A stretch of 48,772 nt of DNA from Clostridia bacterium (GTDB taxonomy: Bacteria; Bacillota; Clostridia; RUG12999), in the NCBI GenBank assembly GCA_022801925.1, contig JAAWTG010000019.1:1-48772 (forward strand). The letters are read 5' to 3'. The notes beneath the pieces are model-generated. The model was given only the letters and a program-made list of their open reading frames with translations. It was not told where the DNA came from and searched no databases. The translations under genes and the position numbers were made by a program. Below are positions 22,402 to 48,772 of the stretch, in pieces; position 1 is the first letter of the stretch; each line of letters begins with the position of its first letter.

Positions 22402-22463
22402 GTATATTATCAACATTATATTTCGAGGAATTGAAAAAAGCAACGAAAAATAGCCCACTGTTT

Positions 22464-26287: not shown

Positions 26288-26301
26288 ACGCACCTCTCCT
26301 T

Positions 26302-27087: not shown

Positions 27088-27099
27088 GCTATCCCTTCC

Positions 27100-30840: not shown

Positions 30841-31263
30841 TTACCCCTGATTCTGTCCGTATATTTCTTTCAAATTTTCAATCGCAAGCGTGGGATCCAT
30901 TGTATGAAACATCATATAATTACGCTTCATGGTTTCAACCGGCGCTTGCTTATAGATTCTTGCGCTATCCTCGCCGGTATAAAAATGCCAATAGCGATAG
31001 AGATAGCCAATCCAATACAGTACGTCCGCAGAAAAAACTTCTCCGGCAGAAGCAGCTATTGCGTCATCTGAGGATACAATTTCCTCCAGCAAGTATTCTT
31101 CTCCCGCCCACTGCATACGGTTATATTTTGAATCCAATTCTTTGGCGGTTTCAGACGTCATAAAGATTTTTACAAACAAGGCGCTGCCATAGCCATTTTG
31201 GGCGGACAACTCAAACATTCTGCCCTGTATATCGCAAAGCTTCAACGCTAATTCATCTATCAT
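30841..31263 (-). CDS. Unknown 140-residue partner of the HTH-DUF3990 protein (putative antitoxin)
   Basis: I do not recognise a named family. The protein is soluble, mostly helical, with conserved-looking aromatic stretches: ALFVKIFMTSETAKELDSKY, MQWAGEEYLLEEI and ADVLYWIGYLYRYWHFYTGE. Its ATG overlaps the TGA of the HTH-DUF3990 gene (ATGA, 31260-31263), so the two are translationally coupled and likely made in fixed ratio. This layout, and the fact that the first gene has a toxin-like ADP-ribosyltransferase fold, suggest it is the neutralising partner; that is inference from position only. hsdM follows after 34 bases on the same strand. Confidence 0.6.
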   Translation of the reverse strand: MIDELALKLCDIQGRMFELSAQNGYGSALFVKIFMTSETAKELDSKYNRMQWAGEEYLLEEIVSSDDAIAASAGEVFSADVLYWIGYLYRYWHFYTGEDSARIYKQAPVETMKRNYMMFHTMDPTLAIENLKEIYGQNQG

Positions 31264-32135
31264 TTTGATGCTCCTTTCGCTTCATCAAGGATTTCATCAA
31301 AGAACTTACCTTCGCGGCGGTAGTTTTTACAGATGTCGTTTGCAAGTGAAATACCTTTTGCCCTGTTCGCATCTGCAACTGTTTTCATAACAAGTCTTTC
31401 CAGATAGGAAAGCGGTATTTCAGTTTCTATGCGAACCGCAGCGCAGCCTTTCTGCGAAACTGCAACATACTGTCTGCCAAGCTGCAACGCCGAAAGACTG
31501 TTTACAAGAGCAATATCAGTAACATTTCCGATAAAAAAGTTATCTATCACATAAAACATACGGTCATTTGCAATGCTGCCTATGATTAAATCCTTATCCT
31601 CCATCATAGCACGGTATTTCTCATAAAGCTGGGTGCCTTTTATTTTTTCCATCTTGCCGCGGTTATATGCTACAAGCATCGCCCAATCAATATCAGTGTG
31701 AACCTCCAGCTGCACCAATGCGTCTATGCATATGGAAACAATATAAAATTTGGATTCTTCATAATCACAAATAAGCGTAAGCGGCTGATTGGGATCAGTC
31801 CCCATATAAAAGCCACTGCCAAAATCACACTGTTTACGGCTTTTCGGCATAATATTTCCTACAATTCCCGATTTTGAACCATGATAAAGCAACAGTCTGT
31901 TTTGCTCCGGCTTAACCTCGTTTGCCGCTTGATTGATTTTATCAAGAATCATTTCATAAACCGGCACTTTTTTATTGCAGCAAATTTCGTATAACTTTGA
32001 TTGTGCCAATTTATTGGGGACTGCATGACCATTCTCCCAGCGGTTCACTGTTGCAAAGGATACGCCAAGCCACTGTGCAAATTCCTTCTGACTTATATTG
32101 AAATAACTTCTTATTCGTTTTATGATAGCCTCCAT
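31260..32135 (-). CDS. HTH-DUF3990 protein (ADP-ribosyltransferase-like)
   Basis: A 291-residue two-domain protein. Residues about 3-55 are an XRE/Cro-type helix-turn-helix (IRSYFNISQKEFAQWLGVS, ATVNRWENGHAVP). Residues about 80-230 match DUF3990, whose fold belongs to the ADP-ribosyltransferase clan: LLLYHGSKSG supplies the motif-1 His (85) and DFGSGFYMGTD the motif-2 Tyr (110). Such domains modify targets with ADP-ribose from NAD and several act as toxins; activity here is not proven. ATG 32135 follows GAGGTG; the upstream in-frame ATG lies in the ribosome site itself. The promoter carries a long inverted repeat, probably bound by the HTH. The partner gene overlaps its stop. Confidence 0.82.
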   Translation of the reverse strand: MEAIIKRIRSYFNISQKEFAQWLGVSFATVNRWENGHAVPNKLAQSKLYEICCNKKVPVYEMILDKINQAANEVKPEQNRLLLYHGSKSGIVGNIMPKSRKQCDFGSGFYMGTDPNQPLTLICDYEESKFYIVSICIDALVQLEVHTDIDWAMLVAYNRGKMEKIKGTQLYEKYRAMMEDKDLIIGSIANDRMFYVIDNFFIGNVTDIALVNSLSALQLGRQYVAVSQKGCAAVRIETEIPLSYLERLVMKTVADANRAKGISLANDICKNYRREGKFFDEILDEAKGASK

Positions 32136-32145
32136 AACGCACCTC

Positions 32146-32200
32146 ATAATATAACATTCTCTATATTTAATATAATATCAAGCGTTATATTATTTGTCAA
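32146..32200 (-). promoter_or_regulatory. Promoter and inverted repeat of the HTH-DUF3990/hsd unit
   Basis: On the minus strand a perfect TTGACA (32195-32200) and TATTAT (32172-32177) are 17 bases apart. GTTATATTAT (32184-32193), inside the spacer, is the exact inverted copy of ATAATATAAC (32146-32155), which lies just before the ribosome site. The two half-sites 38 bases apart could be bridged by the HTH protein. The rest of 32201-32313 holds a 22-codon frame without a ribosome site and nothing else. Confidence 0.75.
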
Positions 32201-32313: not shown

Positions 32314-32347
32314 AAAAAAAGCGCCACAGCCGAAACCATGACGCTTT
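32314..32347 (-). terminator. Terminator of the glycoside-hydrolase operon
   Basis: On the minus strand AAAGCGTCA and TGGCGCTTT pair (one G-T) around a 12-base loop, followed by a run of T. It lies about 100 bases after the stop of the GH3 gene; 32348-32445 between them shows no gene. Confidence 0.8.
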
Positions 32348-32445: not shown

Positions 32446-35130
32446 CTACCGCATAATAGTTATTCTCTCCACGCATACCAGCGACGGGAAAGAAATTTTA
32501 ATGTTGCCCTCCATACCATGCGCCGTAAAATCAAAATACGCCCGCTCTTTTTTGCCGTCTGTGCCATTCACGGTCATGCCTGCATTGATTTCGCCGTCAA
32601 TCACTGCCGAGATGGTCAGCTGCGACAGTTTCGGTGCATTCGCCGTATAATCAACGCACAGCAAACGTCTGCCTGTTCCGCCATAGTGAACTTCTATCTG
32701 CTCGTCCGTTTTCGGCTCGGAATATTCAAATACCGTTTCAAGTTCCTCCACTTTATATCGCAATGACGACTCAAACTTGCCGCCGTTTTCAATGAATCGC
32801 GCAAATGTATGCGTATGCATAATATAATTCAGCAAATTCGCCGCGTTTCTTTGCAGCTGTCCTCTTGTGAGTGCTCCGCTTTCAAGTCCCTTTTCAAGAT
32901 TGTTCTCCAGCGCCGCCGCGTCGCCTGCCAGCATATACACATCACATTGCGCGGCTGCCATATCGCAAAGATTTAATAGTCCGTTCTCCTCTTTGCATAG
33001 TTTCGGCCACCAATCCGTCATCACCATTCCTGTATAGCCCCATTCTCCGCGCAGGATTGTCGTGTTCAGTTCATAGCTGTTGGACGTCCAATACTCGTTG
33101 ATAGGATTATACGAATTCATCAGCGACGTTGCCTTTCCCTCTTTTACACATAATTCAAACGGCTTCAGATATATTTCCCGCAGCGCTCTCTCCGACACCA
33201 CCGACACGGTCTTATTTCGGCAGAGTTCCTGCGAATTTGCGGCAAAATGTTTCACTGTTGCACTGTTGCCGTATATATTCATCCCACGCACCAACGCCGC
33301 ACCGATTTTGCCCGTCAGATATGGGTCTTCGGACAAATATTCAAAATTCCTGCCGTTCAGCGGTGAACGGTGGATATTGATTCCCGGCCCCAATAGAGAA
33401 TCAAAGCCCTGTGCGCATAGTTCCACACTTGCATATTCATACAGTTTTTCCGCTGTTTCCGTATCCCATGTGCAGGCAATCAGTGTACCGTTGGGCATAC
33501 TCGTGGCGGTATCTCCGTTATCCATACGGATTCCCGAAGGTCCGTCCGCAAGGCATACGATGGGGATTCCGAATGCAAGAAGCTCCGGCGTGACGCCGCC
33601 AAACGTGCCGGTGCTGCCCGGACGCACCTTGGGCGAGGACATTCCTTCCCCTATGATAAGACACCGTAAATCCGTATCGCTCAGTTGCGCGATAAATTCT
33701 TCCATGGTATGTTTGCCGTTTTTAACGTCAATCAGCTTGATTCCTTTGTCGCCTGTATATGCTATGCTCTCCGGCATTTCGTCAGCAATTCTTTTCTTGT
33801 AATCAACCGTTCTTCTCGATACTTTTCTGTATGCGGGCGTAAAATTCTCATCGGGATACAGCACATCAAAATCACGCTCGGGCGCCATCGCCTCGGTGAG
33901 CTGCCGGGTAACGGTTGTTTCTTCTATTGTAAATGCAAACACTTTTTCCGCACTGCGCACATCCTTGCCAATATAGATGGCATACTCTCCCGCTTCCAGC
34001 ACATAACAGGATTTATGCCCTGTGATGCCGCTGTCGTCATATGAAGCAAAATCCGCGATATCCATTTCAAGCAACAAATCAACGCTTTCTCCTGGAGAAA
34101 TTACATCCGTTTTTGCAAAGGCGCACAGTGAACGCTTTGCCTTGCCGAGTTTTCCCTGCGGCGCTTCCATGTACGCCTGAACGACCTCTTTGCCGCTCCT
34201 TTTCCCTTGATTGATAACCGTGACATCAGCAGATATTTTATTCCCGTCTCGTTTTACTGCGAAAACATTCACTTCAAAATCGGTATACGAAAGACCGAAC
34301 CCGAACGGATACAACACCGTTTCGGGCGCGAAGGTTTCAAAATACCGATATCCGACATAAATATCCTCCTGATACAGGTTAAACTCTTTATCGCCGAAAT
34401 TTTTACTGCTCGGATAGTCGGATATATCGGCGGCTATGGTATCCGACAGTCTGCCGCTCGGATTCACGTCACCCGAAAGCACGTCGGCAACAGCGTTGCC
34501 GCCCTCCTGTCCGCCCTGCCAAATATACAGTACGGATTTTATATGATATTTTTCTACCCAATTCATATCTATGATATTTCCGACATTGAGCAGCGCGACC
34601 GTATTTTCAAAATACTTTGAAACAACGTCAAGCAGCGCTTCCTCCTCATCCGTCAGATACCAGCTTCCTTTTTCCGGCGCATTATCCCTGTCCTCGCCCG
34701 CGGTTCTGCCAATGACAATGACTGCCACATCAGATTTTGCTCGCGCCGCCTTGACAATACTTTCATCAGGCACAAATTCCTTCTGGAACCACGGCTCGGT
34801 TGCCCAACCGTGCCCCTCGTCAAACGGATTTTCAGCAATCCATTTTTTGTAAACATCGACAAGCTCGGTGTTTACATTTATGTTTGGGTTCGCCAGCGCA
34901 CCGTCTATGATATTCACCACATACTCCGTATGCACAAGTCCGCCTGAACCTGTGCCGCTTTTGATGTAATCTATTTGCGTTCTGCCGAAGAACGAAACGG
35001 TGTTTTCCGACTTTATCGGAAGAACATTGTTTTCGTTTTTCAGCAGCACACATCCGTCCGCCGCAACCTTTCTCGCATGTGCGGCAAGCGGCGCATACGG
35101 TTTTGCCTCGAGTGTTTTGATGTTTATCAT
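32446..35130 (-). CDS. GH3 beta-glycosidase, permuted domain order, cytoplasmic
   Basis: An 894-residue family 3 glycoside hydrolase without signal peptide. The domain order is reversed compared with the classic enzyme. The C-terminal-type alpha/beta sandwich domain comes first (DGCVLLKNENNVLPI, residues about 25-230), then an Fn3-like domain (about 270-400; LYPFGFGLSYTDFEV leads into it). The (beta/alpha)8 barrel follows (about 475-800), with the nucleophile Asp706 in GMVMTDWW and KHFAANSQE. The same order is known in Ruminococcus albus and Butyrivibrio beta-glucosidases. It probably removes terminal sugars from imported oligosaccharides; the sugar cannot be told. ATG 35130 follows CAGGAGG. 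It is the last gene of the operon, 54 bases after the trehalase-like gene. Confidence 0.93.
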   Translation of the reverse strand: MINIKTLEAKPYAPLAAHARKVAADGCVLLKNENNVLPIKSENTVSFFGRTQIDYIKSGTGSGGLVHTEYVVNIIDGALANPNINVNTELVDVYKKWIAENPFDEGHGWATEPWFQKEFVPDESIVKAARAKSDVAVIVIGRTAGEDRDNAPEKGSWYLTDEEEALLDVVSKYFENTVALLNVGNIIDMNWVEKYHIKSVLYIWQGGQEGGNAVADVLSGDVNPSGRLSDTIAADISDYPSSKNFGDKEFNLYQEDIYVGYRYFETFAPETVLYPFGFGLSYTDFEVNVFAVKRDGNKISADVTVINQGKRSGKEVVQAYMEAPQGKLGKAKRSLCAFAKTDVISPGESVDLLLEMDIADFASYDDSGITGHKSCYVLEAGEYAIYIGKDVRSAEKVFAFTIEETTVTRQLTEAMAPERDFDVLYPDENFTPAYRKVSRRTVDYKKRIADEMPESIAYTGDKGIKLIDVKNGKHTMEEFIAQLSDTDLRCLIIGEGMSSPKVRPGSTGTFGGVTPELLAFGIPIVCLADGPSGIRMDNGDTATSMPNGTLIACTWDTETAEKLYEYASVELCAQGFDSLLGPGINIHRSPLNGRNFEYLSEDPYLTGKIGAALVRGMNIYGNSATVKHFAANSQELCRNKTVSVVSERALREIYLKPFELCVKEGKATSLMNSYNPINEYWTSNSYELNTTILRGEWGYTGMVMTDWWPKLCKEENGLLNLCDMAAAQCDVYMLAGDAAALENNLEKGLESGALTRGQLQRNAANLLNYIMHTHTFARFIENGGKFESSLRYKVEELETVFEYSEPKTDEQIEVHYGGTGRRLLCVDYTANAPKLSQLTISAVIDGEINAGMTVNGTDGKKERAYFDFTAHGMEGNIKISFPSLVCVERITIMR

Positions 35131-35184: not shown

Positions 35185-36393
35185 TTACTTTTCCAAATAG
35201 TCCGCTGCGGCAAGATACACGCCGGCGCTCCACCCCATCATAGCCGGCATTTTGTATTCGTTAGTAACATCAAGCCCGCCGCTGATAACATTATATTTCT
35301 CCCACAAATTACCTGTTTCGTCAAAGGTTTTGTCAACCAGTTTTATATATTTTTCAGCTATTCTTTTTGCTTCTGCCTTATATCCGTATCTGTCAAGTCC
35401 AACCATCGCAATATATTGCAGACATGCCCAGCCGTTGGGATAATCCCACTGATAGATTCCCTCTGCATCGTTCTTTTCGCAGGTCAGGATTCCATACTCT
35501 GACTCCAGCCTATCCAAATTATTTACCAACGCCTCCGCATGTTTCTGTTCAGCAAGCCCTGCAAAAAGCGGATAAAACGATGCGGCAGACAAAATATCGC
35601 TCCGCTTGCCCGTGGCAAAATTATAATCAAGAAGCAATCCTTCACCATTATCCATTTTATCAAGCATTTGCTTTTTTCGCTTTTCTGCTCTGTCTAGCCA
35701 TATACTTTCTTCCCCATTGTTTAGCGTTTCCGCAAAAAAACTCATATTTCTCTCCATCATAAACAGCAGAGAATTCAGGTCAACCGCCGCATATTGAAAA
35801 GCATCGTAATCCCAACGCGGTGTAATATCCCACCCGCTTTCGGCAGTCGTGCGGTAATGTCTTCCAAGTGTATGAACCTCCACATGCGGCATAAATCCTG
35901 CTCGTCTTTCAAAATCCTCCGCCATATCCTGATACATTTCTTCATTCTTCATCTCAGAGTCATAGTGATTTAGACCGATAGCCAAAGTTCGTTTTGTCTG
36001 CCAAAAATCATATTCCTTTTCCAACATATGATACGCTGCATACAGCCAAACCGTATCGTTATAATACTCATAAATATCCCGCACCATACTGCTTAGAAAC
36101 GGCGGCTGCGAATGCGTTAAATAATAGGTACGGTTTCCGTTTGGCATAAAACCGTATCGGTTTACCAAATACAGCATATCATCAACATTATATTTTGCCT
36201 GTTCTGCTCTTCCGTCAAGCAGCAATCCTTTATTGGTGAAATAGGTATCCCAATAGTACATCTCGTCAAAATGACCGACTGCCGGAACAGTATACGGATA
36301 CGGAAGCCCAATCAGCGTATCTTCATCATTTCTGTTCCGCTTGATACAACTGTCCCAATTTTCGCTGATAAATTTTTTAACTTTCTCTGACAT
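35185..36393 (-). CDS. Trehalase-like glycoside hydrolase (GH37), cytoplasmic
   Basis: A 402-residue (alpha/alpha)6-barrel enzyme of the trehalase family. Family signatures are present in modified form: AVGHFDEMYYWDTYF for signature 1 and QWDYPNGWACLQY for signature 2. The likely acid Asp189 lies in AESGWDITPRW and the base Glu365 in LWEKYNV. E. coli trehalases are near 550 residues; this one lacks the usual N-terminal part. Known enzymes invert and split alpha,alpha-trehalose, but position in a glycan operon between two GH3 genes suggests another alpha-linked disaccharide may be the real substrate (inference). ATG 36393 follows GAGGAG; an earlier start would overlap the GH3 stop. No signal peptide. 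Confidence 0.8.
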   Translation of the reverse strand: MSEKVKKFISENWDSCIKRNRNDEDTLIGLPYPYTVPAVGHFDEMYYWDTYFTNKGLLLDGRAEQAKYNVDDMLYLVNRYGFMPNGNRTYYLTHSQPPFLSSMVRDIYEYYNDTVWLYAAYHMLEKEYDFWQTKRTLAIGLNHYDSEMKNEEMYQDMAEDFERRAGFMPHVEVHTLGRHYRTTAESGWDITPRWDYDAFQYAAVDLNSLLFMMERNMSFFAETLNNGEESIWLDRAEKRKKQMLDKMDNGEGLLLDYNFATGKRSDILSAASFYPLFAGLAEQKHAEALVNNLDRLESEYGILTCEKNDAEGIYQWDYPNGWACLQYIAMVGLDRYGYKAEAKRIAEKYIKLVDKTFDETGNLWEKYNVISGGLDVTNEYKMPAMMGWSAGVYLAAADYLEK

Positions 36394-36403
36394 TTTCTTC
36401 TCC

Positions 36404-38536
36404 TCATTTTTCATCCACAACTGCTATTTTCACTTTATTATCTGTCGTGCAATCCCCGCCGATAAAGACGTCAAATTCGCCCGGTTCAACACAGAATTTA
36501 CCGCTGCCATTGTAAAAACCAAGTTCCTCAAAACCCAGTTCAAAAGTAATTTCCCTGCACTCGCCTTGATTGAAGAAAATCTTAGAAAAACCCTTCAATT
36601 CCTTTACCGGTCTTGTCATAGAGGAAACCAAATCGCTGATATAGCATTGTGCCGTTTCTTTCCCTGTATACTTTCCCGTATTGGTAACTATAACGCTTAC
36701 TCTGAACTTTTCTCCATTTTGCAATTCTGCTAATGTCAGCGTATCATTTTTACACTGAATCTCAGAATATTCAAATTTCGTATAACTCAATCCGTATCCA
36801 AATGGATACATTGGCGTTGATTTGCAATCCCAATAATTGTCCCCCTCGCCGTAATATGCCATACCATTTCCGAAAAATGAAGGATAGTTATAATACAGCG
36901 GGATTTGTCCTGTCGTTCTCGGAAAGGTCATTGGCAGTTTCCCTGACGGGTTCACATTTCCGCAAACAATATCCGCTATACTCTGTGCCGCGCAGCTCCC
37001 CGACTGCCAAGCATATAAGATTGCGTCAAAATACGGTTCCGCTTCCCCCAGTGCAATCGGACGGCCAAAGCACATCACACCAACCAATTTTTTGCCCATT
37101 GCCTTTATCTTTTTTATCAACGCAAGCTGTTCGGCGGGAAAATCAATATTGGTCAGGCAATTATTTTCCCCGCTTACCCTTGCGCTTTCGCCAAGCGCAA
37201 GCACAACCGTATTCACCTCTCTAAGCGTCAAAAGAATATCATCCCATAAATACGGAAGCTGCGGAAAAATAAACCTATCCTTATCCGCACAATCTAAAAA
37301 AGCTTCCTGAATGCTTTTTAGCATACCTGCATCATAATCGGGCGCCCAGCTTCCCAGATGAGAGCGTTTTTCATACAAAAACGGTCCTGCAACAGCAATT
37401 TTTTCTGATTGTCCAATCGGCAGTACGCCGTTATTTTTCAAAAGAACCATACTTTCATCCGCGCACTGCTTTGCAAAGCTGAGATGTTCCTCGTAATTGA
37501 TTTGTTTCCGCTCGGCATAGGGATGCTCAAATAACCCGAATCTCTCTTTTATATATATCACACGATACACCATTTTGTCAATGGTTTCCTCTAATACTTT
37601 TCCCTCCGCAGCAAGTTCGCCCAAATGCTCTATATAGCATCTGTCAACCATATCCATGTCAAGTTCGGCGCCGGCAGCCAGCATTGCCGCTTCTTTCTCA
37701 TCCTTCGCCACTCTGTGACTGACAAGTTTTGCAATGGAAGCCCAGTCGCTGATAATAAATCCATTAAACCCCAGTTCCTCTTTCAGTACATCATGTAATA
37801 AATACCTGCTTGACGCTACGGGCTGACCGCTGATTTCACTAAACGAGTTCATCACAGTCGCTACATCTGCCTCCACAGCAGCCTGAAACGGTCTTAAATA
37901 GTAATTCCGCAAGGTATAGTCACTGATTTCTGTTTTGCCGTAATCACGGCCGCCTTCCACCGCACCATACCCCAGATAGTGCTTTGCACAAGCCGCAATC
38001 GACTCTGTATTTTTATAATCCTCTCCCTGAAATCCTCGTATCGCCGCCTTGCCCATTTCAGAAGTAAGATACGGGTCTTCGCCGAAGCCCTCAATACACC
38101 TTCCCCACCTCGGGTCGCGCGAAATATCTATCATCGGTGAAAATGTCCAGTGCACACCATCGCTTGCGGCTTCCTTTGCAACAGCACGGTACGCTTTTTC
38201 AATTAGTTTGGTATGAAAACTCGCCGCCTCTGCAAGCGGAATGGGCAAGACCGTATGATGTCCGTGAATGACGTCCCGACCAAAAATGAGCGGTATTCCT
38301 GCCGTAGACTCCTCTACTGCAATCTGCTGCAATTCATTTAATAGGTTCATGTCTATTCTTTTCTGCTCGTCATTTCCCGCCGTTGCAGTATCCGCAAGAA
38401 TAATGGAACCGACTCTGCCTTTGCGGATTTCCTCCCGGATTTGTTCCGTATCCTCTAACTGTATTTGATTTAACTGCCCAATTTTTTCCTCTAAGGACAT
38501 GCTCCTTATTTTTTCAATTATTTTACTTGATTTCAT
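36404..38536 (-). CDS. GH3 beta-glycosidase, classic domain order (BglX-like), cytoplasmic
   Basis: A family 3 glycoside hydrolase of 710 residues. The barrel comes first (about 1-330), with FGRDVIHGHHTVLPIPLAEA, KHYLGYGAVEGGRDY and the nucleophile Asp264 in GFIISDWASI. The alpha/beta sandwich domain follows (ESMVLLKNNGVLPI, about 355-560), then the Fn3-like end (MYPFGYGLSYTKFEY). No signal peptide, so it acts inside the cell. Two ATGs start the frame; the second (38536) lies six bases after GAGG and is preferred by a hair. It follows the secreted GH gene after about 70 bases that contain a hairpin. Together with the permuted GH3 it covers two exo-activities; beta-glucoside or beta-xyloside are the usual choices. 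Confidence 0.95.
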   Translation of the reverse strand: MKSSKIIEKIRSMSLEEKIGQLNQIQLEDTEQIREEIRKGRVGSIILADTATAGNDEQKRIDMNLLNELQQIAVEESTAGIPLIFGRDVIHGHHTVLPIPLAEAASFHTKLIEKAYRAVAKEAASDGVHWTFSPMIDISRDPRWGRCIEGFGEDPYLTSEMGKAAIRGFQGEDYKNTESIAACAKHYLGYGAVEGGRDYGKTEISDYTLRNYYLRPFQAAVEADVATVMNSFSEISGQPVASSRYLLHDVLKEELGFNGFIISDWASIAKLVSHRVAKDEKEAAMLAAGAELDMDMVDRCYIEHLGELAAEGKVLEETIDKMVYRVIYIKERFGLFEHPYAERKQINYEEHLSFAKQCADESMVLLKNNGVLPIGQSEKIAVAGPFLYEKRSHLGSWAPDYDAGMLKSIQEAFLDCADKDRFIFPQLPYLWDDILLTLREVNTVVLALGESARVSGENNCLTNIDFPAEQLALIKKIKAMGKKLVGVMCFGRPIALGEAEPYFDAILYAWQSGSCAAQSIADIVCGNVNPSGKLPMTFPRTTGQIPLYYNYPSFFGNGMAYYGEGDNYWDCKSTPMYPFGYGLSYTKFEYSEIQCKNDTLTLAELQNGEKFRVSVIVTNTGKYTGKETAQCYISDLVSSMTRPVKELKGFSKIFFNQGECREITFELGFEELGFYNGSGKFCVEPGEFDVFIGGDCTTDNKVKIAVVDEK

Positions 38537-38560
38537 CATTTACCTCACTACATAATATAG

Positions 38561-38607: not shown

Positions 38608-41600
38608 TTATAATTTCCAAAGAATATCAAAAATCACTCTTGCCGCCGCGCCTCTCGTTACTAATGTTTCCTGATACTCTCTTGGTATTGTGGCATTCTC
38701 TCGTCCAATCGCCTTTAATGTTTCCTCTATCATGGAATACATATCCTCTGTGCGCAAATACTCCTCCGCATTCAAAAACTCATCATTTATCACACCAAGC
38801 GAACGGAGTTTATTGGCTGCGCTGTCCTCCGGGACATCTTTAAATTTAATATCTTCTGTCGGCGCAGGATTCAGCGCCTGCATCAGCCATAGCGCAAATT
38901 CTCCGCGGGATATGTTCTGATTGGGCGAAAATGTTTTTTCACCTGTTGCACGAATCATTCCAAGCGTATAAAGCCGTTCTGCCGCTTGCTTTGTCTGTGC
39001 ATCCGTGATATCATTGAACACATCCGCACTTTTCTCTTTCAGCGTATATGTTGCCTTTTTATCGGAAATCTTTTGACTTGCCTGTTTCTTTTTTACAATT
39101 TCATAGTTCATGGTTTGGTTATTTGCAGTCAACAATATTTTCGTGTAACCTTCCGGCGTTTTTTGAGTTTTTAGCTTTTTGGCTCTTTGCCCCGCCGAAG
39201 TGAGCGCCCACACGTCATACTCATTTCTGTTTTTGATAACGATTTCTCCCTCAACAGGTTCAATCAGAACCGGTGCGGAGCCGCCGTCTATTATTGAGGA
39301 AAAATCTCTTGCAATCTGCATATCTGAATTTCTGTTTCTTGCCTGCGTGGTAAGCAGCATTCTTTCGCTCGTTTCAATCGGCTGTTTGTCAACAGCTACA
39401 AGAGAATTTACCGAAAACTCTGTATCAATGTTAAATATCACATCATCCGTTTCCAGTTTTTCGCCGCTTAAATATCCGGAGGCTGCCTGCGCGAGTTCCG
39501 TATTTAAAACAAACACTTCTTTATTTTTGTCCGTTGTAAGTTCCCCCGTAACGGAAGTATAAACGCCGCTTTCTTTCCCTTCAGCCGCTAACTTCAAGAC
39601 CTCATCGCTGTTATAGTCAGGGTCATATTGTTCTTCAAAAACCAGACCGGTTTTTCCAATCAGCCCAAGAGACGGTTCCGTTGACAAATATCGCTTTGTC
39701 ACTTCAGAAACATCTTCTTTGCGGCACAATGTGTAGTATCCTTGGTCTGCCTCCTTGACCGCGCCGCTCAGCGCAATAAATGCTGCCGCCGGCAGTCCCG
39801 ACATTTTGAGCGGATTCCCAAAGAATGACAAAACCTCGTTCAACGGATATTTTTCCGGTGATTCATTGATTTTTAACCACTCATTGTATACGCAAAACGT
39901 AAACGCGATGGGTTGAAAATTTTGCAATCTGCTATAGGCTGCCACCAGTAACGGTCCTTCCGCACTCGTGGGATTCGGCTCACATGTGTTCCATTCGGAG
40001 ATGGTGTGCACTTTATTGTAAACGCCGCTGCTCATCATATAGCCCAAAAGTCCCATATTCTCGTCCGCCAGCATAGACACGGTTTCACCAAATTTCGTGC
40101 CTGTTTCAACGCGCCAGCCGCTGGTTGGATGGCTCCAATATTTGTGTGAATCTATAAAATCTGTTGAAGCATTTAGATTTGCAATGCCGCTTTCCAAACC
40201 ATTCCAAACGGTACAGCCCGTTACAAGCGCTTTCACGCCCATATCTTTAAAGTATTTGTATGTTTCATTTGTGTATTTGGTTTGGACGTCCATTGCAAAA
40301 TTCCGCATGTCTTCTCTGCGCTGATCACTGTATGCGGGAATGTCTGCGATTGCTGCATAGTGATAGCCGGCAGCAAGGCTTTCCCCCTCCTGCACACCTC
40401 TTTTACCCGTCTGCGTCCACGCCTGTGCGATTGCCTCGTCTGTTTGATATTTATCCTTAAGCCATGCCGTCAAGAGCGTATCAAGTTGCTTTGCATAGTA
40501 TTCCGATTTTGGCGCCGATATCTCCACAAAGCTGTTTTCATTCACCAAATCCGTGCATACAAAAGCAGGATCGTCCTTTATTTTAAGTCCGGTATAGGGA
40601 TTGTACCAATTAAATAACTGCGTTGAAAAATCCTTGTGTAATTTCTGAATGATGGGATCGTAAAAGTCAAATCCCTTCTGTGCGCCGCCTACAGTCCGAT
40701 AGTCCTGAATATTATCATCTTCAAACGTCGTCCTGTTTGTTGCGTTATCTATGAACCAGTAAATCCCCCTTTTCTTTAATTCGCTCAGCAAATAGCACAG
40801 TTTATCCATTTGTTCTTCATCAAGCTGAGTTGATTTCTTGGGGAATCGTCCGAAAATATAATTACTTCTGTCGTTTACACCATCCATATGATGGATTCTG
40901 ACCAGATTAAAGCCTTGCACTGCAATCCAGTCGGCAAGCAATTCCGCCTCATCGTGCGACATAAATAACATTTCACCAATGACATTGATTCCCCAAAACT
41001 GAAACGGCGTTCCATCTTCAAAAAACATCTTGTCATTTTCCGCGCGGACAAAGCCATGCTTTCCGGCAGGCGCGTCCAAAAGATGCGACATATCCATAAT
41101 TGTGCCTTTTACATCCTCCACGTGCGGCAGCGTATACGGATACCAATGACTTGTGGACTGCGGATTTGCAATATCCGGCGGAAGCGGTAGATATGGTCTT
41201 TCATCGGTCAGGGTTGCGGCAACAACTATCAAAGCCGTCTCATTGCCCGGTGTACTCGCCACAATCTTACTGATTTTTTTATTGGGATACGGATTGGGAC
41301 ACGCATACATACCAAGGGATATTAGATTCGTGGATCCATTCGCCCCAGTCCAGACCGAAACACAAGTTTCGGATGAATCTTTTCCCCACCAGTTAAATAC
41401 GTCTTTCTTTCCCCGAACATTTACATCGGAACTTGTTCCGTCCTCATAAACAAAGGTATATTTTCCGACAATATCCGAAATATTCCCCTGTGAATGACTC
41501 GCCGCATGAAGAAAATACACGCCTCCCGCTTTTTGATTAACCTCTATCTCAGCGGATGTTGGAAAATACTGATTGTTTTCTCCCCTGAGAACAATACAAG

Positions 41601-41886
41601 AACTTCCGCCGTTATTCTCAGGGTCTATAATATCAAAGGGAATCCCGTTAAACAATGTTCTGCCCTTGAACGTGAAAGTACGAAAGTCATTTCCCGCTCC
41701 CTGGTCTGACCAGCCGCCTTTTCCGTCTTCTGCTATGTCGTCAGCAAATCCCATATTTGCTGCCTCTGTCATATCCAAAGGGGTAAAGGTCTGCGTGCCG
41801 ACATCATATTCCATTTCTTCCGCTGCATGGACATGAAACATACCAAGCAACATGATGCAAACAAGTATTAGGCTTATCTTTCTCAC
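38608..41886 (-). CDS. Secreted clan GH-A glycoside hydrolase with SLH repeats
   Basis: A 1092-residue exported protein. GTG 41886 is seven bases after AAAGGGGG and starts the signal peptide MRKISLILVCIMLLGMFHVHA; an ATG six codons earlier lacks a site. Residues about 25-230 form a beta-sandwich domain of carbohydrate-binding type. Residues about 275-690 are a GH-A barrel: FEDGTPFQFWGINVIGEM and VRIHHMDG, with Glu450 in CTDLVNENSF as acid/base and Glu631 in HTISEWNT as nucleophile. About 700-900 is beta-rich. From about 905 three SLH-like repeats occur (FNDITDAQTKQAAERLYTLG; ISRGEFALWLMQAL), tethering it to cell-wall polysaccharide. It most resembles GH5/GH42-type enzymes; exact family and substrate are not clear. 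It overlaps no gene and follows the 832-residue SLH protein closely. Confidence 0.88.
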   Translation of the reverse strand: MRKISLILVCIMLLGMFHVHAAEEMEYDVGTQTFTPLDMTEAANMGFADDIAEDGKGGWSDQGAGNDFRTFTFKGRTLFNGIPFDIIDPENNGGSSCIVLRGENNQYFPTSAEIEVNQKAGGVYFLHAASHSQGNISDIVGKYTFVYEDGTSSDVNVRGKKDVFNWWGKDSSETCVSVWTGANGSTNLISLGMYACPNPYPNKKISKIVASTPGNETALIVVAATLTDERPYLPLPPDIANPQSTSHWYPYTLPHVEDVKGTIMDMSHLLDAPAGKHGFVRAENDKMFFEDGTPFQFWGINVIGEMLFMSHDEAELLADWIAVQGFNLVRIHHMDGVNDRSNYIFGRFPKKSTQLDEEQMDKLCYLLSELKKRGIYWFIDNATNRTTFEDDNIQDYRTVGGAQKGFDFYDPIIQKLHKDFSTQLFNWYNPYTGLKIKDDPAFVCTDLVNENSFVEISAPKSEYYAKQLDTLLTAWLKDKYQTDEAIAQAWTQTGKRGVQEGESLAAGYHYAAIADIPAYSDQRREDMRNFAMDVQTKYTNETYKYFKDMGVKALVTGCTVWNGLESGIANLNASTDFIDSHKYWSHPTSGWRVETGTKFGETVSMLADENMGLLGYMMSSGVYNKVHTISEWNTCEPNPTSAEGPLLVAAYSRLQNFQPIAFTFCVYNEWLKINESPEKYPLNEVLSFFGNPLKMSGLPAAAFIALSGAVKEADQGYYTLCRKEDVSEVTKRYLSTEPSLGLIGKTGLVFEEQYDPDYNSDEVLKLAAEGKESGVYTSVTGELTTDKNKEVFVLNTELAQAASGYLSGEKLETDDVIFNIDTEFSVNSLVAVDKQPIETSERMLLTTQARNRNSDMQIARDFSSIIDGGSAPVLIEPVEGEIVIKNRNEYDVWALTSAGQRAKKLKTQKTPEGYTKILLTANNQTMNYEIVKKKQASQKISDKKATYTLKEKSADVFNDITDAQTKQAAERLYTLGMIRATGEKTFSPNQNISRGEFALWLMQALNPAPTEDIKFKDVPEDSAANKLRSLGVINDEFLNAEEYLRTEDMYSMIEETLKAIGRENATIPREYQETLVTRGAAARVIFDILWKL

Positions 41887-41900
41887 TCTTACGCCCCCTT

Positions 41901-44399
41901 TCATTCATCAGTTGCCGGAACCATGGTGGTAGTTTCATAAATGATTACCTGCACACCCTTGGGCGACGGCCATTCTGCAACATAGTACCAAAGCGGGCAT
42001 TGATTCGGAACATTTTTATAAGAACGTTTTATAAACTTTCTTGAATATCGGTCATATTCATAGACCCGCGGTGAGTCGCAAAAATACACTTCACTCGGTT
42101 CTCCCGCTGTTTCGAACTGTATCACATTTTCATCCCGGAATCTTATGGAATCCATTTTGAAAAATCCATTTGATCTATCCGGTGAATATTCGGTAGTTTT
42201 CCATGTTTCCGGTTCACCGCTCATGTCAAATACATCATTTTTGGGATTGAGCGCAATCGGTTCTTCGCTGAGTGTTTTGTTACGATAGCGCACAAAGCAT
42301 CTATCTTTCAAATTATTATTAGCTACAAATTCATTGGTTGCTATATAACTCGACCCTCCTGCAAACTCAATCCGCACTTTATTATCAGGAAGCTGACTTA
42401 TTTTTTGAAGCACATCAAGCGTTGTGTAGTAGCTGCACAGTTGATCACAATTTCTGGTCAATGCAACAAATCGCGGCAGGGGATTATATCGGATATCAAA
42501 ATCTGAAACAACCGTCATCGCAACCCCATTTACAGTTCGTGATCCTCTAATAGATTCCCATGTAATATGCTTCACGGTAAATTCTCCATCCATTTCAAGC
42601 AGCGCAAACATTGTCGCTCTTTTTACCGGCACCCCTCCAATTTGATGTGTGTTCCCCACATCCTCAAGATCGTTCGTAGTTGTTGAGGAACCCCAGTATT
42701 CCGGCACCTCAATCTTTTTGATTTCATTCTGATTGTTTAAGATGAATTTTAAAAAACCACGACCATCATAATCTTTAGCAACCGAAGTTACGTAATCCAT
42801 ACTAAGCGAGTCGGCGCTCAGCTTGGAAGAAACTTTATAGATTGCCTCGCCGGTGCCGCCGGTAATTTTATGGACTTTAACCTCATATTCTCCGCCCAAA
42901 GCGCTTGAGGAGCCCACTCCCATTACCACGCCGTAAAATTCATTCATTTCTGATAAAGATTCATCAACTTCCATAAAACGGACGCATTTATTATCGTCAA
43001 TATAGATTTTTACAGCCTTTGAAAGGGATTTTGTGTAATCCTCACGGTCGGAATATTTCTTGGTAATGGTTGACTGTGCTATGAGTTTATGCGTTTCACT
43101 TATTTCATATTCAACATCATCAATATAGATAGAATCCGGACCATAGCTTTCAAATCTGCCTTCGGCTGTTCTGGAGGATGCAACAATGATAAATTTTGTT
43201 TCGTCTTTATTGCACCAGTAGTCAAACACCATATCAGCTTTTAAGTCAAGCATATTGCTGCTTCTTACGCCGTCTACATAGATTTCCAGTTCTTTCACCT
43301 TGTCAAAGCCGGAAATTGTATTTTCAGGCATTTTACCTGTAATATACTTAATTTCCTGTGGGTCTGCACGATAGATTAATCCTCCAACACGCAAAGAATA
43401 CGCTTCAACCTTGACAATCTTGTCCTTTTTTATGATGATTTTTGCAAACGTATTGATGTAGTTTCCGGCAGCTGCCTGTTCATTCAATGTAATCTTTGCA
43501 TTATCTTCCACCTCAAAGGTTTCTCCGCTGTTTCTCAGCGATATTTCCCTTATGGCGGAAGGATATATGCTGCTCTTACTTTGTTCATCGTTTACATATT
43601 CTATAAAATCATAAACAATTTTTGTGTCGCCCAAAACATCAATGTAGATGACAATATCATCGTTTTTTCGCACATATATCTCTGCTCTTCCTTCGGGAAT
43701 GGTACCTAAATCTATGTTTTCCGTAAAATAAATTTTTCCGTTTGCCTCTATTTTACTGTCCGATACATCGACATTCGTGATGTCAGCCTTTATGATGTCA
43801 ATCCCTAACCCACTCAGCAAAGTGCTGTCCTCGTCAACCGCACTCATAATGACATCACCATAGGATACCGGTTTCATCAAAGGGCTTTCCAGTGCGTTAT
43901 CCAAAAGCTTCAATGCATCTTTTAGTTCAAATTTCGCATTCACGCCTTTGAGTACATTTGCTTTTAAAGCCGCTCCGACATATCCCTCTGCTTCCGCGGC
44001 AGGTCCATATCCCAAAACTTTTACAATCATTTTGATTGCCTCATCATACGATATCGCATTATCAGGATAAAAATAGTCTGCTTTTTCAATCAATCCTGCT
44101 TTCAACGCAAACTGGATTTCATTGGATGCAAACCCGCCGGGGTTTACATCCTTAAAATCCACTTCCGCATAATGGGGCGCCGCATTGCCTGATAAGTACA
44201 TTTTTACCGCCGTTTTCACAAACAATGCCCTGCTCATCTGCGCTTGATTTACATTGAGATCCGCCGCATCCAAAAAACCGAGACCTTCCAGCCGATACGC
44301 TTCTTTTGGTATATCCCTTGACGCAGCATTCACCTGAATTCCTGATATAAAAATTGAGAAAACAACCAATACTGCAAAAAGCTTGTTACATAATTTCAT
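41901..44399 (-). CDS. Secreted SLH-anchored protein of unknown function (832 residues)
   Basis: Signal peptide at 1-25 (MKLCNKLFAVLVVFSIFISG, cleavage after VNA). Three degenerate SLH repeats follow at about 28-180: KEAYRLEGLGFLDAADLNVN, FALKAGLIEKADYFYPDNAI with YDEAIKMIVKVLGYG, and AALKANVLKGVNAKFELKDA. Residues about 185-832 are beta-rich, with many short strands and repeated I-Y-I/V-D motifs (AEIYVRKNDDIVIYIDVLGD, ELEIYVDGVRSS, PDSIYIDDVEYEI). No family or catalytic signature is recognised. It is probably a structural or glycan-binding surface protein. AGGAGG precedes the ATG. It stands 12 bases after the giant Fn3/SLH gene and 14 bases before the GH gene start, so all three are made together. 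Confidence 0.85.
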   Translation of the reverse strand: MKLCNKLFAVLVVFSIFISGIQVNAASRDIPKEAYRLEGLGFLDAADLNVNQAQMSRALFVKTAVKMYLSGNAAPHYAEVDFKDVNPGGFASNEIQFALKAGLIEKADYFYPDNAISYDEAIKMIVKVLGYGPAAEAEGYVGAALKANVLKGVNAKFELKDALKLLDNALESPLMKPVSYGDVIMSAVDEDSTLLSGLGIDIIKADITNVDVSDSKIEANGKIYFTENIDLGTIPEGRAEIYVRKNDDIVIYIDVLGDTKIVYDFIEYVNDEQSKSSIYPSAIREISLRNSGETFEVEDNAKITLNEQAAAGNYINTFAKIIIKKDKIVKVEAYSLRVGGLIYRADPQEIKYITGKMPENTISGFDKVKELEIYVDGVRSSNMLDLKADMVFDYWCNKDETKFIIVASSRTAEGRFESYGPDSIYIDDVEYEISETHKLIAQSTITKKYSDREDYTKSLSKAVKIYIDDNKCVRFMEVDESLSEMNEFYGVVMGVGSSSALGGEYEVKVHKITGGTGEAIYKVSSKLSADSLSMDYVTSVAKDYDGRGFLKFILNNQNEIKKIEVPEYWGSSTTTNDLEDVGNTHQIGGVPVKRATMFALLEMDGEFTVKHITWESIRGSRTVNGVAMTVVSDFDIRYNPLPRFVALTRNCDQLCSYYTTLDVLQKISQLPDNKVRIEFAGGSSYIATNEFVANNNLKDRCFVRYRNKTLSEEPIALNPKNDVFDMSGEPETWKTTEYSPDRSNGFFKMDSIRFRDENVIQFETAGEPSEVYFCDSPRVYEYDRYSRKFIKRSYKNVPNQCPLWYYVAEWPSPKGVQVIIYETTTMVPATDE

Positions 44400-44411
44400 G
44401 AATGATTCCTC

Positions 44412-47400
44412 CTAACGATTTCTTCCCTGTATCATCTGATATACCACCTTTGCAGCCATTGCACGCGTTACCTCGCCTTCAGGAGCAAACATATTATCGC
44501 CCACACCGTTCACAATACCCATCTGCTGGAGTTCGCTAACCGCTTCCTTCGCATAATCTGCAATTCCGCTTCCGTCAGAAAATTCCAATTTGCTGTACTT
44601 TTTATCCAAATTCAAATTCTGGCTTTCTATGACGCGGCTCATGATGGTACACATATCCTGCCGGGATATCGTCTCGCCCGCGCCAAAAGTATTATCTGCA
44701 ACACCTTTGATGATTCCGGCATTCACTGCACAAGAAACATACTTGTAGTACCAAGCTGATGGGTCAACGTCTGAAAAACTGCTGCCGGTATTTTCATCCT
44801 CTATTTCAAAAGCTCTTACAATGATTGCGACAAATTCTTCTCTTGTGATAGAATTATCCGGTCGGAACGTATTGTCTTCATATCCGTTTATGATATTGTT
44901 TTCACTGAGATAAAGGATACCTTCACGCGCCCATTCTACCGATGAAATATCGCTAAAGGTTGTCTTAACAGGCGGTGTAATCACAGGATTGTTTCCGCCG
45001 CCTGTACTCGGTCTTGCTCCGCCGATTGACGAAGAACCGCCGCCATTGCCGCCGGAACCACCGGAGCCTCCCGAACCACTCGAACCCTTGGTCGCGGAAA
45101 CCGTTGCACTGCCGTTTACTGCAAATTCTTTCACTGCATCTGCATCCGAATAATAGCAATACAGTTTTCCGGTAGCAGAAATCTGTGAACTTCCGCTTTC
45201 CAATGCCCGGATTGCAAACGTTCCGATGCCGTCTTTGAGCGACATAGCTTTCGTTTTATCGGCAGCACAATGAATTTTTAGTTTACCGGTTTCATTTTCG
45301 GCTGTGATTCCGCTGTTTTTCAAACTGTTTACTATCTTGACTTCATCTTTATCCAAAAGCAATTTGCTGCTGTCATAGGAAATCTCAATGTCAAAGCCGC
45401 ACACAGTTTCGTTTGCTGCGCCGCCTGTGAAATCTAAGGTTTGCACCATCGGCGCATTTGTCGTACCTGACATAGACTGCAGATTTAAGTCAACCGTTTT
45501 CACAACTGTTTCTGTGCTGACAGTTGAATCGGTTGTGAAGGAAAGCGTATATTTTTGCTTTTGAACCGTTCCGCCTTTTGATACCGCATTTTCAACAACC
45601 ACCGAGTATGCTTGATTCGCCTCAAGATTTTCAAGCAAGTTTATCACGTATTCGCCGTTTTGCTCGTCATACTCAACAATGGAAGGCACTTTTTTGTTTC
45701 TGCACACAACCTTCATTTCATTGCTTGACAGCTGTTTTTCGTCCATTTCTGTGTCAAACTTAACCGAGAACTGATTGGTCTGCCCGCTGATTATGGCATC
45801 ATTTTCAAGCACATTGCCGCCAGCCTTGACAGACACTACTTCCGGCGCCTGATTTGCATAAATCGCAATTTCGTCAACCATAAAAAAGGTATTTTCAGCA
45901 AGACCTTGCAATTCGCTGACAAGCACCAATTCTTCAACATTAGAATAGTTGAAGTTGGTTTCATACGGTAAATTCGCTGACGTTGCCGTATAAACACCTT
46001 TTTGCGGTAAATCTTTCAGCGGAATCCGCACAAAATTCCAGCCTGTATTTTTCACATACCGGTCAAGTGCAACAGCTGCTTTTAATCTTACTGTTTTTCC
46101 TGCAAGACTTGAGTTATAGTTCTGAACAGCACCGAAACTGAGTTTGCTGATATCTAACCCTTCCGGCACATACATCAAAAATCTTATTTCTGCAGCGCCG
46201 CTTTTAATCCTTGAAAAATCCAATCCACCAGTTGCCGCAAATCCTGCCGTCTGTTCAGCAAAATTCGGCGAGCTGAATCCGATGCGAATACCTCTTGCAC
46301 CAATCGCGCTGTATTCTGCGCCTGATTCTATCACTGCCCCATTGGTTGTTGCAAACTTGAGTCCATCCCCCAATGTATCGCCAAATACATCACGAAATAC
46401 TTCAAATTTTGAACCGTGTTTTATATATCTTACTGTTTCCGAAGCACGTGATAATTGATCTGCTTCATTCACTGCTTTCACATAAAATTCATAGAAACTA
46501 TCATCTGCACAGTCTTCAAATACATAAAAACAGTCCGTTGTTTGTGCGGCACGCACGCCGTTTCTGTATACTTCGTACCCTTTTGCACCTTCAACGTCGT
46601 CCCATGAAATCTTAACGTTACCGTCAGCGTCCTCCGCCTTCACATTTTCGGGTGGTGAAATGACATCTGCCACTACCGAAATCTCTGTTGTTTTATCCGA
46701 TTTAGCAGAATCCACGCCTACCGCGGCAACAGAGTAACAGTATGCAGCACCTGCCGTCAAACCGGAGCTGTCGGTATATTCATGCGCATCAGCGCCTACC
46801 GTAGTCAGTAATGCGCCGTTACGATAGATTTCATAGCCGGTCGCCGTCCCATATCTCGGTGCTTCCCATGTTAATTTAACCGCCAGTTGACCCTGAACCG
46901 GCGCAGCTGCAAAATTCTCCGGTCTGCCCACGCTGCTGATAAAGCTCTGCACCGGCGCAGAAAATACTGTCGCACTGCCATCCGCTAATATTTCACGAAT
47001 CGTATATTCATATGTATGACCTAAAACTACATCTGTGTCCCTATAGCTTTGCGCGCTCCCTTCCAGCGCCGCAATTTTCTCTTCGTCTCTGAATATTTCA
47101 ATTACGCGGCAATTCTCTGCTTTTCCATCCCAGCCGAGCGTAATGCTGTCTTGCGCAACATCGGAAACCCCAAGCTTTATGCTTGTTGCCTGCGGCTGCC
47201 TTATCTCATAGCAATAGGTGAAGTTTCCATCTTCCACATAAAGAATAGGGCTTACAACTCTGCCGTCATTCAGAATTACAGAAGCCAAAGAATTTGATGA
47301 ATAATTTTCCAAACTCTGCCAAGTAGCCGTACTGTCAGCTTTTTCTTTCACCAAATATGCATTTTTGCCGGAGATATACTGTTTCATATCACTCAGGCTT

Positions 47401-48772
47401 TGTCCATAGTTGTAGATAATTCCCATTTCATTGTTGATATATTTTTCCGGCGCATCAATATATGCTGCATCGCCAAAGGAAAAATATGGTGAAACCACCG
47501 GCTCATCCACACTATATGCTACCTTGACATCATCAACGTAAACATCAATGCTGCGCTCGTCCGCACCCGTATTCACATCTCTGACCTGGAAATTCAGCCG
47601 GCTGAGACCCGCAATAGTCAGGTTCTCATTGCTGATATCTTTTTCCTTTACAACCGGATAGCCGTTCACATAAATGGTCATTGTCTTGTCCATCTTGTCA
47701 AAAACATAATCATAGTTTGCCCACTTACCGGCATCCGTCCGCACTTCATAAAACGTCCCAAAAACGCCTTGACGCCGCCCATACCAGTGAAGCATCTCTT
47801 TCTCGCTGTTACCCCCGGCAGTCAGAAAATCAAACGACACATCCAGACCGGCACCATTCTCTCCAAGGACTGATTCCGGCGGCATAGGGTCTTGCGCAGC
47901 ACTGAAGGAAACATGCAGATACCGTTCATTGTCTTCCATTTTCTGCGAATTCGATATCATTCTGTGGCTCACTCCGTTAGTTCCTTGGTCGCCGTCCCAA
48001 CCACCCATCCAAGTACCTTCTTCCGCAGAATTCGGTACATTGGTAGTTCCGTCAGCTTGCTTCCCAAACGGAAGTTTGAATGTCGCGTTGAGATGAAGCG
48101 ATTTATCGTCAGATGCTCTGCCGTTTGCTCCCGTTTTCAGTTCATAAGCCGATTCCATATTCTGACCACCATTCTCATCCAAATAGGAGAAAAATGGCTT
48201 TCTGTCAAATTGTTCTGTTGTAGGTTCTTCACCATTCCACCAATTCCGATTGTTGAAATTCTCGGCGTATATTACCCTGCTGTCTGAACTGCCAAAGCTT
48301 ACAAAAACAGAAGCCTCCGGTGTTTTGCCGGATCTAATCTCTCCAAATAGCGCCGCAACGGAATAACGGTATGTAGTATCCTTCTTTATAGCGGAACTAT
48401 CAGTGTATTCAAACACGTCGGCATCCACCGCAGTCAATAAAACGTCATTGCGATATATTTCATATCCTGTTGCTCCATCAATGCTTGGCGCTTCCCATGT
48501 TAATTTAACAGCCAACCGATCCGGAACTTGTGCAGCTGCAAAATTCTCCGGCTTTCCAACATTACTCAACGTATCGGTAAATGCAGATACGTTGTTGTCC
48601 GGCAGCAATTCGCGAATCATATAATCATATGCTGTATTTGCCACCACACTCGTATCCGTATAGCTCTGTGCACTTCCTTCCAGCGCCGCAATCTTTTCTC
48701 CGTCTCTGAATATTTCAATCCCCCTGCAATTTGCCGCATTACCCTCCCAAGTAAGCGTAATACTGCTTCCTG
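44412..48772 (-). CDS. Giant secreted Fn3 / concanavalin-like / SLH protein, 5' end cut by window
   Basis: The frame is open to the right edge; 1452 residues are visible. In order: Fn3 pair (visible residues 2-155), concanavalin-like jelly-roll (about 165-425; YAENFNNRNWWNG, IDVYVDDVKVAY), a linker domain, a second Fn3 pair (540-700), and a third Fn3 (705-785). Next come a CBM-like sandwich (about 790-970), an Ig-like Big_5 domain (about 975-1080) and a cohesin-like domain (about 1090-1225). A Gly/Ser linker (about 1227-1262) and three SLH repeats (FSDISSVEWAREGILYLSEN, FSDVDPSAWYYKYVSCAVNA, FSDGSGIADYAKEAVSELQQ) end it. It should bind a polysaccharide and be held on the wall by the SLH repeats. 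No catalytic site is seen; one may lie in the missing part. First visible gene of the six-gene unit. Confidence 0.9.
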   Translation of the reverse strand, partial: GSSITLTWEGNAANCRGIEIFRDGEKIAALEGSAQSYTDTSVVANTAYDYMIRELLPDNNVSAFTDTLSNVGKPENFAAAQVPDRLAVKLTWEAPSIDGATGYEIYRNDVLLTAVDADVFEYTDSSAIKKDTTYRYSVAALFGEIRSGKTPEASVFVSFGSSDSRVIYAENFNNRNWWNGEEPTTEQFDRKPFFSYLDENGGQNMESAYELKTGANGRASDDKSLHLNATFKLPFGKQADGTTNVPNSAEEGTWMGGWDGDQGTNGVSHRMISNSQKMEDNERYLHVSFSAAQDPMPPESVLGENGAGLDVSFDFLTAGGNSEKEMLHWYGRRQGVFGTFYEVRTDAGKWANYDYVFDKMDKTMTIYVNGYPVVKEKDISNENLTIAGLSRLNFQVRDVNTGADERSIDVYVDDVKVAYSVDEPVVSPYFSFGDAAYIDAPEKYINNEMGIIYNYGQSLSDMKQYISGKNAYLVKEKADSTATWQSLENYSSNSLASVILNDGRVVSPILYVEDGNFTYCYEIRQPQATSIKLGVSDVAQDSITLGWDGKAENCRVIEIFRDEEKIAALEGSAQSYRDTDVVLGHTYEYTIREILADGSATVFSAPVQSFISSVGRPENFAAAPVQGQLAVKLTWEAPRYGTATGYEIYRNGALLTTVGADAHEYTDSSGLTAGAAYCYSVAAVGVDSAKSDKTTEISVVADVISPPENVKAEDADGNVKISWDDVEGAKGYEVYRNGVRAAQTTDCFYVFEDCADDSFYEFYVKAVNEADQLSRASETVRYIKHGSKFEVFRDVFGDTLGDGLKFATTNGAVIESGAEYSAIGARGIRIGFSSPNFAEQTAGFAATGGLDFSRIKSGAAEIRFLMYVPEGLDISKLSFGAVQNYNSSLAGKTVRLKAAVALDRYVKNTGWNFVRIPLKDLPQKGVYTATSANLPYETNFNYSNVEELVLVSELQGLAENTFFMVDEIAIYANQAPEVVSVKAGGNVLENDAIISGQTNQFSVKFDTEMDEKQLSSNEMKVVCRNKKVPSIVEYDEQNGEYVINLLENLEANQAYSVVVENAVSKGGTVQKQKYTLSFTTDSTVSTETVVKTVDLNLQSMSGTTNAPMVQTLDFTGGAANETVCGFDIEISYDSSKLLLDKDEVKIVNSLKNSGITAENETGKLKIHCAADKTKAMSLKDGIGTFAIRALESGSSQISATGKLYCYYSDADAVKEFAVNGSATVSATKGSSGSGGSGGSGGNGGGSSSIGGARPSTGGGNNPVITPPVKTTFSDISSVEWAREGILYLSENNIINGYEDNTFRPDNSITREEFVAIIVRAFEIEDENTGSSFSDVDPSAWYYKYVSCAVNAGIIKGVADNTFGAGETISRQDMCTIMSRVIESQNLNLDKKYSKLEFSDGSGIADYAKEAVSELQQMGIVNGVGDNMFAPEGEVTRAMAAKVVYQMIQGRNR
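46683..47147 (-). repeat. Second copy of the duplicated Fn3 pair
   Basis: Codes for an Fn3 pair closely matching the pair at 48312-48764: both contain EIFRD-EKIAALEGSAQSY, NFAAA, AVKLTWEAP, ATGYEIYRN and EYTDSS at the same spacing. The DNA also stays alike, for example GCAGCTGCAAAATTCTCCGG (plus strand) in both. It is an internal duplication within one gene. Confidence 0.85.
48312..48764 (-). repeat. First copy of the duplicated Fn3 pair
   Basis: Matches the pair at 46683-47147, with about 1.2 kb of concanavalin-like domain between the copies. The duplication may continue past the window edge, since the alignment is still good at the last bases. Confidence 0.8.

Follow-up and report, generated by a model that had tools for sequence, protein, structure and literature searches.

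The window analyzed here is the whole contig C3, 48,772 bases of a 2.95-Mb draft genome of an uncultured gut Clostridia; the closest named relatives are uncultured Clostridia MAGs, in which the enzyme P3 is 97% (L117) and 89% (L118) identical. The locus consists of six minus-strand genes in the order P1-P2-P3-P4-P5-P6, separated by successive gaps of 12, -4, 68, -17 and 54 bp (Table 1). The first three genes encode the surface trio, secreted SLH proteins that each combine SLH repeats or an SLH trimer with a signal peptide, the marks of a wall anchor (signal peptides of P2 and P3 were judged by eye), and the last three encode enzymes without a signal. An earlier note on this DNA had described, within 38608-48772, a giant protein, an unknown SLH protein and a GH-A enzyme, all wall-anchored, together with three cytoplasmic glycosidases; the three SLH genes lie where it put them, on the minus strand, and the giant protein is incomplete in the window because of the contig end. 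At least 150 SLH matches were found in the genome by SLH family search; the SLH genes at this locus are not there by chance. The hairpin past P6 is the longest terminator-like one on the minus strand of the scanned region and lies about 100 bases beyond the P6 stop; terminator-like sites as a whole show no excess there (16 vs. 16.6 in shuffles). From the short gaps and this hairpin, P1-P6 are likely to be carried on one transcript.

Table 1. Features of the locus, in window coordinates
Feature	Position	Strand	Description or basis
Overlap with the end of contig C12	48697..48772	-	76 bases exactly identical; assembly link to the importer
P1, C-terminal 1452 aa of a giant SLH surface protein	44412..48770	-	Rest of gene on C12
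Large repeated unit of P1	47196..48287	-	No Pfam match at E<=0.01
Cohesin-like domain of P1, borderline	45105..45515	-	24.0 bits vs. cut-off 24.1
Three C-terminal SLH repeats of P1	44460..44960	-	Pfam/SLH search
P2, 832-aa SLH protein	41901..44399	-	Signal peptide, N-terminal SLH trimer, then all-beta chain
SLH trimer fold of P2	43821..44318	-	Residues 28-193, model vs. 7sv4
P3, 1098-aa secreted GH-A enzyme	38608..41904	-	N-terminal beta-rich region, C-terminal SLH repeats
GH-A barrel of P3, residues ~277-718	39751..41076	-	Alignment and predicted fold
P4, GH3 beta-glucosidase-type, no visible signal peptide	36404..38539	-	Pfam GH3
P5, GH37 (trehalase-type), no visible signal peptide	35185..36420	-	Pfam Trehalase
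P6, domain-permuted GH3 beta-glucosidase, no visible signal peptide	32446..35130	-	Pfam GH3, reversed domain order
Terminator-like hairpin, 13 pairs	32318..32347	-	Past P6, probable end of unit

Several other genes share the contig. Just downstream of the locus (30841-32147, Pfam), a gene combining HTH with DUF3990 and a second, small gene are perhaps a toxin-antitoxin-type pair. A type I restriction-modification locus (22464-30806) comprises HsdM, HsdS and HsdR; Abi_alpha separates the latter two, and a gene for a YgjP-like metallopeptidase follows. The contig also has a Fic/DOC-family gene (18730-19782) and a large serine recombinase of 730 aa (15830-18022) that ends in a SpoVT C-terminal domain, an unusual combination.

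The contig ends at 48772 within P1, whose first part was located on contig C12. The end of C12 is formed by the same 76 bases as the start of C3 on the coding strand, a match also recovered by search. On C12, Pfam identifies in order SBP_bac_1, a pair of BPD_transp_1 permeases, an AraC-type response regulator and a histidine kinase; next come a nucleotidyltransferase/HepT pair and the beginning of P1, which carries a signal peptide (by eye). These importer and two-component genes and P1-P6 are all co-oriented. The earlier note had held that the importer is not in the operon and proposed looking for it upstream of the window. Its apparent absence reflects the contig end, since the C3/C12 overlap rules out a locus without importer, and the importer does lie upstream. 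In the sister species (G002) the order from SBP through permeases, regulator and kinase to P1 is the same and lies on one contig, with 95-99% identity to C12/C3 over the main segments. Within our genome, an MntA/HepT-type nucleotidyltransferase/HepT pair (L054, 9918-10599) and a terminator-like hairpin (10601-10625) lie between the histidine kinase and P1, so that the importer and the trio may be two adjacent units. The HepT pair is matched in genome G001 and has no match in G002 over that stretch. At two loci of other species (L120, L121) the distance from importer to P1 is just 34-38 bp.

If the contigs join directly, P1 has 1888 aa, and it would be longer if a repeat unit was collapsed in assembly: the joined gene holds two large units vs. 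three in the sister genome (G002:C180, L102), which leaves the length of P1 here uncertain. Its Pfam matches comprise three SLH repeats, fn3 and Big_5. P2 yields one weak Pfam SLH match (23 bits), and a full SLH trimer is indicated by its model, in which residues 28-193 superimpose on SpaA-SLH (7sv4) with Z 13.9 and rmsd 3.6 over 146 aligned residues. The overall P2 model has pLDDT 72.7 and pTM 0.46, with residues 567-658 under pLDDT 50. A fold search with the low-confidence beta region gave OB/SH3-like matches that are weak (E no better than 9e-4, or Z below 8), and a PDB sequence search with the P2 family returned S-layer/SLH proteins only. Neither brought up a SusD or porin fold or one of a named partner, an absence that carries little weight.

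P3 shows all hallmarks of clan GH-A: a barrel in the predicted fold (pLDDT 88.1, pTM 0.80 without the SLH end), an Asn455-Glu456 pair (acid/base) and Glu637 (nucleophile), these residues being invariant in a 14-row alignment. Its C-terminal SLH region (Pfam) comprises two repeats by profile in orthologues and a third, degenerate one by eye. The family assignment by profile search that the earlier note had called for gave no family name: residues 1-945 have no Pfam GH family at E<=10 and none in NCBIfam, and P3 lacks the match to a GH5 family model by which GH5 membership is judged from sequence. The nearest folds are mannan-active GH5 enzymes. Each of the 19 best structural matches is a GH5 mannanase or mannosidase, the family being our own reading where a title gives the enzyme alone; the top one is 8gf3, with Z 28.6 and rmsd 3.2 over 324 aligned residues, and GH164 and others follow at Z ~22. 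GH5 mannanases also head the matches of a profile search against PDB sequences (E 2.6e-10), and Foldseek ranks GH50-type agarases first by E-value. Our guess is that the substrate of P3 may be beta-mannosidic.

Among the cytoplasmic enzymes, P4 matches GH3 beta-glucosidases and P5 matches trehalases. P6 is collinear with the circularly permuted GH3 beta-glucosidases of known structure (PDB 5wug, 5k6l) over residues 8-778 (E 1.5e-269 for 5wug) and differs from them in nothing notable; its permutation is thus already known.

To follow the trio across species, a P3 alignment was run against named genomes and 77 loci were kept. P1, P2 and P3 occur in this order at seven of them (L117, L118, L119, L120, L121, L122 and L124), whole or, at contig ends, partial (P1 of L118 is off the contig), and their P3 proteins share 34-97% identity with ours. 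An SBP gene and two permease genes stand immediately upstream of P1 in four (L119-L122) of the five loci that reach far upstream, the twelve genes being recognized in part by Pfam and otherwise by phmmer matches to the C12 permeases; at L124 no importer is seen within 2.7 kb upstream of P1. The cytoplasmic enzymes are the least conserved part, appearing at only two of the seven trio loci, the same-genus L117 and L118, and P4 and P5 were seen only there. At L121 the trio locus continues (18891-23227) with BNR, DHDPS-family and DUF1861 genes, so the downstream enzymes vary among species.

In two of these loci (L119, L122) a single open frame spans P1 and P2, and in Ca. Avimonoglobus (L129) an SLH-C protein is fused to a P2-family protein. 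All three fusions have lost the signal peptide of their second part and carry a hydrophilic linker in its place. L119 and L122 are not sisters within the trio clade and L129 lies elsewhere in the tree, which makes three separate fusion events likely. The fusions are the strongest evidence for P1 and P2 working together. The twelve named loci with a P2-family gene were picked because a P3 homologue is nearby; in every one (12/12) an SLH gene adjoins the P2-family gene or is fused to it (at L118 this neighbor is P3).

The unknown SLH protein of the earlier note belongs to a family for which neither Pfam nor NCBIfam has a name other than SLH. A P2 query gave 20 matching places in its own genome. 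The family was sought in 41 sequence sources of that genome, a set that stops short of every base, and was defined as the members found full-length in the first profile round, later rounds having drifted into other SLH proteins. This yielded 29 full-length candidates, and 28 hold up in a leave-one-out test beyond the SLH part; the one that failed (L046 9811-12303) is counted among the 29 and was kept out of the alignment and tree. The 28 members have a median pairwise identity of 20% beyond the SLH part, and the P2 of the window is the most divergent of them (E 4e-11). Pfam finds only SLH in 24 of the 28 and a LysM-like match in one. One NCBIfam model matches 6/28, and its match in P1 falls on the SLH repeats.

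Most P2-family genes in this genome (24/29) directly adjoin an SLH gene on the same strand, with gaps of -19 to 76 bp, and for most members (24/29) the partner bears C-terminal SLH repeats. The 28 scanned partner proteins carry SLH (28/28), aBig_2 (16) and F5/8-type C domains (14); a few have enzyme-type domains, e.g. heparinase II/III. A permease or SBP gene lies within 10 kb of 16 of the 29 family genes, vs. a rough chance expectation of 22% of the genome (binomial 1e-4). Of the 30 SBP matches in the genome, 16 have a P2-family gene no more than 10 kb away.

The family profile was further compared with 60 relatives, at most 15 candidates per genome being scored. It matched 44 of them at E<=1e-10 and 26 (including our own genome) at E<=1e-60, exceeding what SLH alone gave. 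Among 20 P2-family genes that are mostly the best match of each relative, only 3 adjoin an SLH gene and 17 do not (one of the 20 best-match regions, L211, had no P2-family C-part match and another held two); among 20 lower-ranked matches from eight genomes, 13 adjoin one. An invariable pairing of P2 is ruled out by these mostly stand-alone top matches. The family tree (FastTree, 78 rows) has long branches and was built by a quick method, and only its starred groups were used; besides L046 it leaves out L118 (partial) and L142 (split frames), and four contig-edge rows are unlabelled. On this tree the label paired or alone changes 8 times, vs. 20.2 in shuffles (0/500 as low). Stand-alone genes, including members from our genome, fall mainly into clades of their own, one of nine rows with support 100. 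The P2 of the window lies in a clade of seven rows, also with support 100, that consists only of trio P2s. The several stand-alone clades and the few paired top matches indicate that family members also serve some purpose on their own. One such gene of our genome (L039 9369-11933, G000:C47) is a stand-alone orthologue conserved across several Clostridia families (the nine-row clade) and is possibly a basic wall protein.

A Gram-positive polysaccharide utilisation locus (gpPUL) is defined, in the available text of its description, by a degrading enzyme, a transport system and a regulator (PMC5320581). The earlier note had seen a resemblance to such loci, and once C12 is added this published minimum is complete: P3-P6 are the enzymes, the SBP and two permeases the transport system, and the AraC-type regulator/histidine kinase the regulator. 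We therefore consider it probable that the locus is a gpPUL whose surface arm is a matched P1-P2 pair plus the enzyme P3. The synteny, the trio-specific P2 subfamily and the gene fusions suggest that P1 and P2 function together on the cell surface. P1, with repeated binding-type and fn3 modules and C-terminal SLH, and P2, with N-terminal SLH and a series of small beta domains, would both bind the wall polymer, which the product of the genome's single PS_pyruv_trans match (C38) may pyruvylate in the role of CsaB. The pair would hold a beta-glycan and present it to P3; P3 would cut the glycan beside the importer, which would take up the products, and P4-P6 would split these inside the cell. Our best guess at the target, held with low confidence, is a beta-mannoside/beta-glucoside glycan such as glucomannan.

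A broader reading concerns the P2 family as a whole and is put forward tentatively: its members may serve as the dedicated partner protein in a Gram-positive equivalent of SusC/SusD, i.e. an SLH two-protein glycan-capture unit derived from a stand-alone wall protein, present as about two dozen diverged cognate pairs per genome in several gut Clostridia families and sometimes fused. The family might instead have a general structural function in the wall or S-layer; the paired copies would then merely travel within sugar operons, with no specific role alongside P1. The conserved stand-alone clades and the 17 of 20 top matches in relatives without an SLH neighbor speak for this, but interchangeable subunits would be expected neither as 28 paralogues of such low identity nor as fusions with loss of the signal peptide, and the adjacency here (24/29) and among lower-ranked matches in relatives (13/20) also argues against it; we regard it as unlikely.

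Two further alternatives concern single proteins. P1 could be an anchoring scaffoldin that, in the manner of cellulosomes, would bring dockerin enzymes to the wall through its cohesin-like domain. This domain lies beside the SLH repeats, is retained in L119, L120 and L122, and with 24.9 bits in the genome search is the genome's only cohesin match over the cut-off; the genome also has one dockerin match (G000:C83:92143-92298, in a 1632-aa frame). However, the domain is single and borderline, a PDB phmmer search with it gave no cohesin among the matches, and the only dockerin is on another contig, with no Pfam dockerin match in P2 or P3. The locus thus lacks the cohesins with dockerin-bearing partners of a cellulosome, and we give the scaffoldin very little weight. 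Still less probable is that the host is diderm and P2 an SLH-tethered outer-membrane porin like OmpM, a type that, in the accessible text on it, combines SLH tether and uptake channel in one protein (PMC10628300). P2 has the OmpM-type layout of SLH followed by beta structure, but its modelled beta region, itself of low confidence, consists of many short strands in small barrels and not of a single large one, and three SLH units together with a pyruvyl-transferase gene fit wall-polymer binding.

The gpPUL reading has a clear precedent in Paenibacillus sp. JDR-2, which in the available text shares with our locus an SLH-anchored multimodular enzyme, an ABC importer, intracellular glycosidases and regulators, its genome encoding 77 SLH proteins (PMC4765114). 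The kind of system is thus already known. Each JDR-2 system, as far as that text goes, has one SLH enzyme, whereas the locus described here has three SLH proteins, including one of a partner family repeated genome-wide. The gpPULs of Roseburia/Eubacterium rectale likewise bring an enzyme, an ABC transporter and a regulator together at a single locus; CBMs are believed to take part in binding there, and the available main text has no SLH or S-layer (PMC5320581). What differs from the known systems is therefore the three-protein surface arm with its repeated, sometimes fused partner family. The available portions of the literature searched (including PMC4765114, PMC5320581 and PMC12163728) contained no account of this pairing of P2.

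The Ca. Avimonoglobus locus that holds a P2-family fusion (L129) recalls Monoglobus pectinilyticus. The glycobiome of that species (Kim et al. 2019) is reportedly that of a specialist among gut Clostridia, with many SLH-bearing carbohydrate proteins. SusC/SusD of Bacteroidota is a recurrent two-gene surface pair with one pair per glycan locus, and P1-P2 is also a recurrent two-gene surface pair. It differs in that P1 and P2 have no Pfam match to a TonB-dependent transporter or SusD (P1 matches SLH, fn3, Ig-type and similar domains and P2 matches SLH) and in that uptake falls to an ABC importer.

Polysaccharide capture at the wall is far less defined in Gram-positive gut bacteria than in Bacteroidota. 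If true, our reading of the pair would give a function to an SLH family without a Pfam or NCBIfam name beyond SLH, and the fusions make direct tests of interaction simple. The recurrent SLH pair would then be a genomic marker by which loci can be counted and paired, as is done with SusC/SusD.
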